This document shows, one piece after another, positions 3,815 to 9,808 of a stretch of DNA of 11,246 nucleotides (its first letter is position 1; each line of letters starts with the position of its first letter). The translations under genes and the position numbers were made by a program. The notes beneath the pieces are model-generated. The model saw nothing but the letters and a program-made list of their open reading frames with translations. It was not told the DNA's origin and made no database searches. Origin of the DNA: an uncultured Aquincola sp. (lineage in GTDB: Bacteria; Pseudomonadota; Gammaproteobacteria; Burkholderiales; Burkholderiaceae); contig CAKZXL010000424.1 in NCBI GenBank assembly GCA_937883885.1, positions 1-11,246 of the forward strand, written 5' to 3'.

Positions 3815-4723
3815 TCAACCCACCCCATCCATCCCCCACAACGCCGTGCCTTCCGCCACCCGCCCCAACAGCTGCGGCAAGGTGGCCTCGTCGGCCATCA
3901 ACGACCCCCAGGCGGTGTGAGAGAGCCCCGGCAACGCCGGCAGCGCGGCCAGCGCCGTGGGTGTGCTGTGCAGCAGGTGGGTCAGCGCATCGGCCACATG
4001 CACGATGGCGCTGAGCGAGGCCGTGCCGTCGGCGTCGGGCCCGGCCGGCTGGTGGTGGCGGGCAATGGCTTCGGCGGTGGTGTCCGGCAGGTGCCAGTGG
4101 CGGGCGATGGTGGCGCCGACGGCAGCGTGGGTGCTGCCCAGCAGCTGTTGTTCGGCCTGGCTCAGGCTCAGGCCCTGGGTCTGGCTCAGCTGGCGTGCCT
4201 GCGCTGCCGCTTGCGGCGCGAACAAGGCCATCACCAGTTGGCCCACGTCGTGCAGCAGGCCGGCGACGAAGGCTTCTTCGGCGTCTTGCCGGCCCAGCGG
4301 GGCCAGCTCGCGGGCGGCGGTGGCGGTGGCCACCGCATGGGCGCGGTACAGCGCCAGGTCGAAGCCTTCGGGCTGCAGCGGCAGCAGCATCTGCTGCACC
4401 GAGACCGCGGCCACGACGGAGGCCACCGGCCGCAGGCCCAGCAGGCGCACCGCGTCGCCCACGCTGCCCACGCGGCCGGCCACGCCGTAGAAGGGCGAGT
4501 TGGCCAGGCGCAGCAGGCGGGCGGCCAGGCCGGGTTCATGTTCGATGGCATCGATGCAGTCGCCGGCGGCCACGCTGTCGCGGCCCAGGGCGCGCATCAC
4601 CGCGGCCATGGCCTTGGGCAGGGCGGGCAGTTCGGCCAGCCGGCGGGCAAAGGCGTCGGCCGTGGCTTCGGCGCCCAGCCCGCCGGCCGCGGGCTGCAAG
4701 GCGGGGGTGGGCAGGGTGTGCAT
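3815..4723 (-). CDS. HDOD domain-containing protein
   Basis: Predicted 302-residue soluble protein made almost wholly of an HDOD domain (about 22-255). This HD-related output domain is found widely in bacterial signalling proteins, often beside c-di-GMP and chemotaxis genes. Visible are LPALPKAM (32-39), the signature LAARLLRLANSPFYG (66-80) and the HD-like set: His129 (YRAHA), His158-Asp159 (LLHDVGQL), His199, His223-His224 and Asp245 (VHVADAL). HDOD proteins usually show no proven phosphohydrolase activity and are thought to act through protein contacts. The start ATG at 4723 is 5 bases past the stop of the EAL-REC-PAS gene, with no strong Shine-Dalgarno, so translation is probably coupled. 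It is the last gene of the four-gene signalling operon. The family call is secure; the partner and output are not known. Confidence 0.9.
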   Translation of the reverse strand: MHTLPTPALQPAAGGLGAEATADAFARRLAELPALPKAMAAVMRALGRDSVAAGDCIDAIEHEPGLAARLLRLANSPFYGVAGRVGSVGDAVRLLGLRPVASVVAAVSVQQMLLPLQPEGFDLALYRAHAVATATAARELAPLGRQDAEEAFVAGLLHDVGQLVMALFAPQAAAQARQLSQTQGLSLSQAEQQLLGSTHAAVGATIARHWHLPDTTAEAIARHHQPAGPDADGTASLSAIVHVADALTHLLHSTPTALAALPALPGLSHTAWGSLMADEATLPQLLGRVAEGTALWGMDGVG

Positions 4724-4728
4724 GGTGG

Positions 4729-7598: not shown

Positions 7599-8454
7599 CA
7601 GCTGTTCCAGCTCGTGCCGGGTGGCGCAGCAGTTCTTCCTGCGTGCGGCGGCGGTCGCTCACGTCCTGCAAGGTTTCGATGGCGCCGATGACCTGGCCCT
7701 CGGCATCGCGCAGCGGCGCGGCGGTGAGGTACAGCCAGGCGCCATGCGTGCCGAAGTCGGGGAAAAACGCCTCGGCCTCCAGCCCGCCGGGGATGATGGC
7801 CGACACCTTGGCCCGCCCTTCGTACAGCTGGGCCAGCTGCTCGGGCCCGGCGCCATCGACGATCAGGTCGGCCAGCATTGGCCGCTGCTGCGCGAAGAAG
7901 GCGCGCCACGCATCGCAGGTGCCCATCACGGTGCTGCGCGGCAGGCCGGTCATGCGTTCGCAGGCGGTGTTCCAGTGCGTCACGCGGTGGCCGCTGTCGA
8001 TCACCATCGAGGCGATGGGCGCGCCATCGACGATCTGCCGCAGCATGCCGGCCATCGCGAACATCGTGCGCTGCGCATGTTCGATGTCGGTCTGGTCCAG
8101 GCAGGTGGCCAGCACGGCCGGGCCATAGGGCCGCTGGGTGCGGCGCAGGTGCAGCTCCACCGGGCGGGCAGTGCCGTCCTGGCTCAGCAGCCGCGCGGGC
8201 AGGGCAGGCGGCTCGGTGTCCTGCGCCTCGCAGGCCTGCCACACGGCCTGCAGCGCGGGCTGGTCTTCTTCGCACACCAGCGCATGGAAGGGCCGGCCCA
8301 GCAGCTCGGCCGCGCTGCGGCCCACCAGCCGGCACAAGGCCGCATTGGTGGCCACGATGGCGCCGCCGGCCTGCAGCACGGCGGGCACGGCCAGCACGCC
8401 CACCAGCTCGACGTCGGCGGCCATGGCGGCCGGGGTGTCAGGCAGCCTGTTCAT
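7507..8454 (-). CDS. Sensor part of the split histidine kinase (frame as read)
   Basis: Translated as it stands, this frame gives 315 residues: two PAS domains (about 15-125 and 138-265) and the linker start DVSDRRRTQEELLRH to residue 278. The last 37 residues (from PARAGTAGA) look unlike any domain and correspond to out-of-frame reading of the kinase linker, ending at TGA 7509-7507. The ATG at 8454 overlaps the end of the HD-GYP gene by 17 bases and has no clear Shine-Dalgarno; Met11 (8424) is another possible start. PAS ligands or cofactors cannot be deduced. Confidence 0.6.
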   Translation of the reverse strand: MNRLPDTPAAMAADVELVGVLAVPAVLQAGGAIVATNAALCRLVGRSAAELLGRPFHALVCEEDQPALQAVWQACEAQDTEPPALPARLLSQDGTARPVELHLRRTQRPYGPAVLATCLDQTDIEHAQRTMFAMAGMLRQIVDGAPIASMVIDSGHRVTHWNTACERMTGLPRSTVMGTCDAWRAFFAQQRPMLADLIVDGAGPEQLAQLYEGRAKVSAIIPGGLEAEAFFPDFGTHGAWLYLTAAPLRDAEGQVIGAIETLQDVSDRRRTQEELLRHPARAGTAGAAPQRRAGRHRARAGTLRGQCASGRGLPG

Positions 8455-9808
8455 GGGGCGGCGGCGGGGCCGGCTCCTGGCGCACGTGCAGCATCAGGCG
8501 CAAGCCTTCGCGGTTCGCGAAGTCGCACACCTGACGTACCACGCGCTGGTCGAACACATAGCCGGCGGCCAGCAGGATGGCGCCCTTGGGCGACAGCAGG
8601 TCACGCCCCAGCGTCATGCCCGGGCGCAGCTCGCGCACGTCGATCAGCCGGTCGGCATGGGCCAGGGCTTCCTGCGCGTCGATCTCGGCCAGCAGGGCTT
8701 CCACCACGCGGGGGTCGTAATGGGTGCCGATGCCGCCGCGCAGCATCTGGCGCGCGCGCTCGGGCGTTTGCCGCTGCTCGGCCAGCGCACCGTGCAACAG
8801 GCCGTCGTAGTCGTTCACCGCCGCCACGATGCGGGCGCCCAGGCTGATGGCATCAGCCGCCAGCCCGTCGGGGAAGCCGCGGCCGTCCACGCGCTCATGG
8901 TGCTGGCGCACGATGCGGGCCGCGGCCTGCAGCTGGGCCAGCGGCATCAGTGCGGTTTCGCCGTCGGTGGTGTGGCGGTTGTAGCGCAGCTTGTCTTCGG
9001 CACTGAGCGTGCTCACCGGCTGGCCCAGCATGCGGTCGGGGAAACCGATCTTGCCCACGTCGTGCAGCAGGCCGCCCAGGTACACGTCGCGGCATTCACG
9101 CTCGCCCAGGCCCAGCCGGGCGGCGGTGGCGCGGGCCAGCGTGGCCACGCGGCGGGCATGGCCGGCGCTGCCTTCGCGCATTTCCAGCAGGCCGGAGAAC
9201 ACGTTCACCGTCAGCATGAAGGTGCGGTCCAGGTCCTCGAACGAGGTTTCCAGCATGCGGTTGAGCTGTTCCAGCTCGGCCGTGCGCGCGGCCACGCGCG
9301 ACTCCAGCAGCCGGTTGGCGGCCTGCAGCGCTTCGTTCTGGCGGGCGGTCAGCGCCAGGAGTTCGGCATGGCGGCGTTCCAGTTCGCGGCGGCTCAGCGC
9401 ATCGCGCACCGTCAGCAGCAGCTCATGGTCGTCCCAGGGCTTGGTGATGTAGCGGTGGATCTCGCCGCGGTTGATGGCCGCGATGGTGGCGCTGATGTCG
9501 GCATAACCGGTCAGCAGCAGGCGGGCCACGCCGGGGTGGCGTTCACGCGCCAGTTCCAGGAAGCGGGCGCCGTCCATCACCGGCATGCGCATGTCCGAGA
9601 TCACCAGGTCCACCGGCTCGGCGTCCAGCAGGTCCAGCCCCTCGGCGCCCGATTCGGCCTGCAGGCTGCGCCAGCCCTGCAGCCGGAAGAGCCGGCGCAG
9701 CGCGCTCAGCACCGAAGGCTCGTCGTCCACCGTCAGGATGGTGTAGTGGCGCGTGTCGTCCGCTTCGGCGCTGGTGGGCCGGGCGGGGGCGACGGTGTCA
9801 CTGCTCAT
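8438..9808 (-). CDS. REC-HD-GYP response regulator (RpfG type), variant active site
   Basis: Predicted 456-residue protein. A receiver (23-140) has acidic pair Asp28/29, phospho-acceptor Asp72 (ISDMRMP) and Lys123 (TKPWDD). A coiled coil (140-195) links it to an HD-GYP domain (about 196-385), the class that hydrolyses c-di-GMP with bound metals. Visible are His217, HDVGK (249-253), His279, HHERVDGRGFP (303-313) and NDYDGL (332-337). GYP is GFP here, and the Asn at 332 aligns with a metal-binding Asp of the usual ADVFDAL, so activity may be changed. A small C-terminal domain (390-443) follows. The start ATG at 9808 has no strong ribosome binding site. It is the first gene of the signalling operon, after a 165-base gap, and overlaps the kinase gene by 17 bases. 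It is probably phosphorylated by that kinase. Confidence 0.92.
   Translation of the reverse strand: MSSDTVAPARPTSAEADDTRHYTILTVDDEPSVLSALRRLFRLQGWRSLQAESGAEGLDLLDAEPVDLVISDMRMPVMDGARFLELARERHPGVARLLLTGYADISATIAAINRGEIHRYITKPWDDHELLLTVRDALSRRELERRHAELLALTARQNEALQAANRLLESRVAARTAELEQLNRMLETSFEDLDRTFMLTVNVFSGLLEMREGSAGHARRVATLARATAARLGLGERECRDVYLGGLLHDVGKIGFPDRMLGQPVSTLSAEDKLRYNRHTTDGETALMPLAQLQAAARIVRQHHERVDGRGFPDGLAADAISLGARIVAAVNDYDGLLHGALAEQRQTPERARQMLRGGIGTHYDPRVVEALLAEIDAQEALAHADRLIDVRELRPGMTLGRDLLSPKGAILLAAGYVFDQRVVRQVCDFANREGLRLMLHVRQEPAPPPPHEQAA

Follow-up and report, generated by a model that had tools for sequence, protein, structure and literature searches.

A putative variant of NosR-type signalling in an uncultured Aquincola sp.: an operon of REC-HD-GYP, PAS kinase, degenerate EAL-REC-PAS and HDOD genes

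Introduction

The NosR-NosP-NosK (NosRPK) system of Burkholderia (PMC12570481) and the HnoK-HnoB-HnoC-HnoD (HnoKBCD) system of Shewanella (PMC6335343, PMC8846402) are the closest described systems in make-up to the locus reported here, a four-gene operon in an 11,246-nucleotide stretch of an uncultured Aquincola sp. (contig CAKZXL010000424.1; the whole stretch is called the window). The operon encodes a response regulator with receiver and HD-GYP domains (REC-HD-GYP), a three-PAS histidine kinase, a protein with EAL, receiver and PAS-like regions (EAL-REC-PAS) and an HDOD protein. We read it, with a probability of roughly 0.5, as a rearranged and partially degraded version of a conserved signalling module, found mainly in betaproteobacteria and centred on a NosR-family REC-HD-GYP protein, in which enzymes of cyclic di-guanosine monophosphate (c-di-GMP) are eroding into protein-contact outputs.

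The comparisons that follow draw on the available parts of the cited papers. The NosRPK system shares with the window a kinase and a NosR-type REC-HD-GYP protein, an altered HD-GYP domain and a HEINN kinase motif; NosK phosphorylates NosR, and its authors read HEINN as a phosphatase motif (PMC12570481). Unlike NosRPK, the window has a three-PAS kinase, a second receiver protein (EAL-REC-PAS) and an HDOD protein, and its HD-GYP motifs are HD and GFP, whereas the published NosR has HG-GTP (PMC12570481). No FIST domain was found among the nine window open reading frames (ORFs) scanned, and in genomes with the window's gene order FIST occurs only elsewhere. HnoKBCD resembles the window in that one kinase serves several receivers, among which one carries an EAL and another a degenerate HD-GYP; the latter, HnoD, is reported as a contact inhibitor of its EAL partner (PMC6335343, PMC8846402). 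However, the EAL of HnoB is active, whereas that of the window is dead by its residues and stands before the receiver; the window adds HDOD, and its nine scanned ORFs hold no H-NOX sensor or helix-turn-helix (HTH) response regulator. In the NosP-NahK-NarR system of Legionella (PMC8846402), a kinase phosphorylates a protein in which the receiver is fused to GGDEF and EAL domains, and the longer homologues of the window's EAL protein likewise combine GGDEF, EAL and receiver. NarR is reported to have both activities, whereas the window protein lacks GGDEF and its EAL is dead; the available part of PMC8846402 names no HD-GYP or HDOD partner for the Legionella system.

The initial annotation of this DNA had found no described system of this exact make-up. 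That view holds for the open literature, where none was recognised among the matches listed in a search that most subscription papers fall outside, although NosRPK and HnoKBCD come close. The REC-HD-GYP protein scores as NosR family, and the scanned ORFs hold no FIST, H-NOX, HTH receiver or active EAL; we file the operon as a variant.

Results

Genome contigs were scanned with an EAL-REC alignment, and the best 80 of 585 confirmed stretches, each reaching up to about 10 kb to either side, were taken as a locus sample; they were picked by the EAL-REC protein alone, and several incomplete loci are short contigs. All four gene types lie on one strand in 60 of these 80 loci, which argues that the four genes belong together, and a relative of the HD-GYP protein (BLAST score >280 bits) is found on the same strand in 70. 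The arrangement seen most frequently is EAL-REC, HDOD, kinase, HD-GYP, in many cases together with a small receiver gene. The order of the window (HD-GYP, three-PAS kinase, EAL-REC, HDOD) was found in L001, L006 and L031, with an intervening receiver gene in L023, and without HDOD in the short contig L053. The homologues are not scattered across genomes, a possibility that the initial annotation had raised, and the window order recurs in Ideonella and Hydrogenophaga. Named loci are mostly betaproteobacterial, and one (L074) is titled Acidiferrobacteraceae.

In the genus of L001 (the Ideonella alba genus), an HD-GYP match at E <= 1e-110 is present in 12 of 16 genomes, one per genome. Twenty further HD-GYP-centred stretches were drawn, ten from this genus and ten from that of L031, with L001, L006 and L031 already sampled and the Hydrogenophaga hits G203 and G239 omitted. 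All 20 contain the three-PAS kinase (in L131 a receiver gene intervenes), 16 have an EAL-REC or REC-PAS gene, 14 have HDOD and 12 have the small receiver gene; the L124 and L130 stretches stop early. Two side observations were made at such loci. In the window-order operon of L125, the small receiver gene is immediately followed by a gene for a GGDEF protein (11234-13297), a candidate circuit partner. In L017 (15264-18377), L050 (4709-7897) and L075 (17004-20117), a further EAL-REC gene lies close to the module.

The REC-HD-GYP protein scores 505.5 bits against the NosR-family profile NF053512 of NCBIfam (cut-off 400) over profile positions 1-422, and all five relatives tested also exceed the cut-off (504.5-585.8 bits); the family name is assigned by profile score and is not a tested function. 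Its receiver retains VDDE, the phospho-acceptor Asp72, Thr100 and Lys123. In an alignment to PmGH (4mcw), Asn332 stands at the D305 position and Ala341 at that of R314, with a numbering offset between the structure file and the publication that is consistent for both. Of seven metal ligands (H, HD, H, HH, D), in a scoring that leaves out the E185 and D183 positions, all but the D305 ligand are retained, as is Lys253. Across 91 aligned HD-GYP domains, the window included, the D305 position is Asp in 27 and another residue in 64, and all seven ligands are retained in 26; no Asp occurs there in any of the 29 nearest rows listed. Judged by these residues, the HD-GYP domain is likely catalytically inactive.

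The second receiver protein has lost more. GGDEF precedes EAL in many relatives, and the window protein begins within the EAL domain (EAL profile from position 15); an identical protein, P0002, is encoded on a contig of 9433 bases. Among the eight catalytic positions E, N, E, DD, K, E and Q, four have changed: Asn to Ala, both Asp of DDFGTG to Ala and His, and the Glu of EGVE to Asp. The Lys and Gln also have roles in the EAL active site, and the Arg of ExLxR, which contacts c-di-GMP, is Gln here. The loop that reads F-x-P-x-x-E in active relatives is altered at F, P and E (residues 41-46), and the adjoining residues 29-44 have a predicted local distance difference test score (pLDDT) below 50 in the predicted structure. 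The region is nevertheless modelled as an EAL fold, with MorA, BifA and 3n3t as the nearest solved domains in a fold search. Metal roles of EAL active-site residues are described in the available part of PMC5301497. On this residue evidence the EAL domain is catalytically dead, as the initial annotation had held along with a variant HD-GYP. Its further claim that this EAL likely binds c-di-GMP is not supported by the altered Arg and loop, and the domain probably does not bind it. For the C-terminal PAS domain that it had named, the predicted fold shows the PAS order of strands and helices (block pLDDT 71-92), although no Pfam PAS model matches at E <= 0.01.

The decay of this EAL can be followed through its relatives. 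P0003, 76% identical to the window protein, has two of the eight catalytic residues changed plus the ExLxR Arg, and P0004 (62% identical, Ideonella sp. DXS29W) has none changed. A quick tree (LG+G4, receiver and PAS columns, 196 rows, long branches flagged; rows with fewer than 180 residues in these columns omitted) pairs the window protein with P0003 and then joins P0004 (support 99 and 99), within a 30-row clade lacking GGDEF (support 97). When an EAL with at least two of the eight catalytic residues changed is called dead, and rows gapped at a scored EAL position are omitted from the counts, 11 of 30 rows in this short clade are dead vs 19 of 163 other rows. Since these 11 comprise the window protein with its partner P0003, then P0021, and a group of eight rows that includes L031, at least two, and probably three, losses of EAL function would have occurred within the clade; parsimony gives at least 16 dead/intact state changes across the tree. 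In the genus group of L031 (Hydrogenophaga), the EAL domain is absent altogether from the proteins of L136, L138, L139, L141 and L142, which are 290-323 amino acids long, start 13-46 residues before the receiver and occupy, as REC-PAS, the slot of EAL-REC-PAS after the kinase. L140 resembles these loci, though its listed ORF is longer. EAL is present yet degenerate in L031, L133 and L135, and in L123 a degenerate EAL lies within a long ORF.

The receivers of the REC-HD-GYP and EAL-REC-PAS proteins are 46% identical over 150 residues, and that of EAL-REC-PAS scores 207.6 bits against the NosR-family model, compared with 73.1 bits for the runner-up among the families that match this receiver. 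They therefore look like siblings suited to one kinase, in agreement with the earlier proposal of one soluble kinase for two receivers. Solubility of the kinase, the other half of that proposal, is likely and not certain: its hydropathy over 19-residue segments peaks at 2.08, at residue 17 (the customary mark is 1.6). Because this peak falls at modelled PAS strands in the structure of an intact homologue, the kinase is probably soluble. It retains the HEINN motif, and a fold search matched PAS-kinase folds and named no PAS ligand.

Discussion

We propose that the three-PAS kinase, in its intact form, would detect a cytoplasmic cue and autophosphorylate on the His of HEINN. The phosphate would then move to Asp72 of REC-HD-GYP and Asp306 of EAL-REC-PAS, and the kinase may also take phosphate off these receivers. 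The HD-GYP domain, short of one metal ligand, would be at best a weakened phosphodiesterase and might act mainly by contacting other c-di-GMP enzymes, by analogy with HnoD. As the receiver and PAS are kept while EAL is lost, we argue that the EAL protein would act through its REC-coil-PAS part, as a phosphorylation-dependent scaffold or as a competitor for phosphate, and HDOD may provide an additional contact output. An extension of this scheme, which we hold only tentatively and consider doubtful, is that the operon represents a late stage of conversion to two-component signalling independent of c-di-GMP, in which GGDEF, then EAL chemistry, then the whole EAL are lost, the kinase, receivers, PAS tail and HDOD stay, and the readout becomes protein contact.

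Several observations weigh against our reading of the operon as an eroded, conserved module with contact outputs. EAL is intact in the window-order relatives L001, L006, L125-L128 and L131 (the last with an intervening receiver gene), so that a contact-only output is not general. The module is also patchy: a strong EAL-REC match occurs in 17 of 150 genomes of the family of L031, and in its genus the HD-GYP match, at the threshold used above, occurs in 13 of 67 genomes, one per genome. An association of EAL death with prior GGDEF loss was tried and dropped, the independent pairs being not significant (13 pairs, median p 0.5). The remaining points concern HD-GYP activity and the kinase frame. 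In PmGH, the available part of the published work reports that D305A leaves detectable c-di-GMP hydrolysis and that R314A causes little loss, and 4r8z, deposited as a c-di-GMP phosphodiesterase, has GFP in place of GYP, as does the window; on these grounds the window HD-GYP may work. Together with its retained ligands and Lys253, this would fit an HD-GYP that acts as a working phosphodiesterase for c-di-GMP or its linear product pGpG (5'-phosphoguanylyl-guanosine) under phosphorylation control, with the dead EAL-REC-PAS serving only as a tuning phosphate sink. We regard this as rather unlikely, given that none of the nearest rows has Asp at the D305 position and that NosR was considered likely inactive by its authors (PMC12570481).

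The kinase gene raises a different doubt. The initial annotation took it for a single gene and did not mention a break, yet the ORF starting at 8454, with the first two PAS domains, stops at 7507, and the remainder lies in another frame (ORF 7598..6282). In a three-frame reading, the frames cross at about 7612-7620 with a net shift of one base, and no single ORF spans the sensor, dimerization and histidine phosphotransfer (DHp) and catalytic and ATP-binding (CA) domains. The circuit would thus run only if the break is an assembly error or if the second piece is made alone. Taken with the degenerate EAL, the break could mean that the operon is a decaying relic in this organism, its kinase a pseudogene and its receivers deprived of input. 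We find this distinctly unlikely: third-position guanine-cytosine content is coding-like on either side (0.92 before the break and 0.90 after, against 0.44-0.75 in wrong frames), and the other genes are open. Moreover, the intact homologue P0122, with 723 amino acids in a single open frame, is 91% identical to piece 1 (its residues 1-278) and 94% to piece 2, which suggests that the break either arose very recently or reflects an assembly error.

The NosR-family output protein also invites the idea that the circuit responds to nitric oxide, the kinase receiving its input from a NosP (FIST) protein encoded away from the operon. A FIST gene adjoins the module in 5 of the 80 loci, and a FIST protein occurs somewhere in 20 of the 23 window-order genomes searched; a Pfam search found FIST somewhere in 24 of 30 genomes drawn from those of the 80 loci, and divergent FIST proteins may have been missed by our local profile, which was built from one seed. 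In those 20 genomes, however, no FIST gene was located near the operon (another contig in 15, more than 1 Mb off in 5), a result on which fragmented assemblies leave doubt. The window kinase has three PAS domains, whereas the available description of NosK gives it no recognised sensory domain (PMC12570481), and we consider an unlinked nitric oxide input very unlikely. Sensing through a linked NosP was dropped for the window subtype, since the FIST-adjacent loci (L027, L028, L030, L037 and L041) all lack the window order. At L028 (6415-8644), FIST (NosP-like) and kinase genes lie divergently beside the module, with a similar arrangement in L027 and L041.

A single conserved gene slot spans GGDEF-EAL-REC-PAS, EAL-REC-PAS, dead EAL-REC-PAS and REC-PAS, and so offers a natural experiment on the purpose of degenerate c-di-GMP domains. 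If REC-PAS alone suffices in Hydrogenophaga, EAL would not be the essential output. The module also enlarges a NosR-kind circuit by HDOD and by another receiver protein, which makes the partner of a degenerate HD-GYP testable.

Features and surroundings of the operon

The four genes run in one direction (Table 1), and by their ORF coordinates are joined by overlaps of 17 and 4 bases and then a gap of 5 bases, exactly as first annotated. Pfam matches on the window ORFs are HD_5 and Response_reg; PAS, HisKA and HATPase_c; EAL and Response_reg; and HDOD.

Table 1. Coordinates of the operon's features in the window
Feature	Position	Strand	Basis
REC-HD-GYP response regulator, 456 aa (amino acids), NosR family	8438..9808	-	ORF, Pfam HD_5 + Response_reg, NF053512
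Kinase gene piece 1, two PAS domains, 278 aa in frame until break	7621..8454	-	ORF, Pfam
Net one-base frame break joining kinase pieces, place approximate	7612..7620	-	Frame comparison; open 723-aa homologue
Kinase gene piece 2 (third PAS, HisKA with HEINN motif, HATPase_c)	6282..7598	-	ORF, Pfam
EAL-REC-PAS, 518 aa; degenerate EAL, no GGDEF before EAL, receiver Asp306, PAS-like C-terminus	4729..6285	-	
HDOD protein, 302 aa	3815..4723	-	PF08668, 180.8 bits

A promoter scan detected none in the window, and three terminator-like sites were observed, compared with 1.6 (standard deviation 1.3) in shuffles. Downstream of HDOD and in the same direction lie genes for a MarR-type regulator, TctB and TctA (1149-3790); with the likely MarR start at about 3739, some 75 bases separate this gene from HDOD, so that read-through is possible. 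Upstream is an epimerase-like gene (9974-10966), whose best NCBIfam match, D-erythronate dehydrogenase, reaches 225.9 bits, below its cut-off of 325. Ten flanking ORFs of four relatives share no theme other than a gene for a patatin-like phospholipase, which lies on the downstream side of the operon in each of the two Hydrogenophaga loci checked (L031, 13881-15719; L135, 1028-2440).

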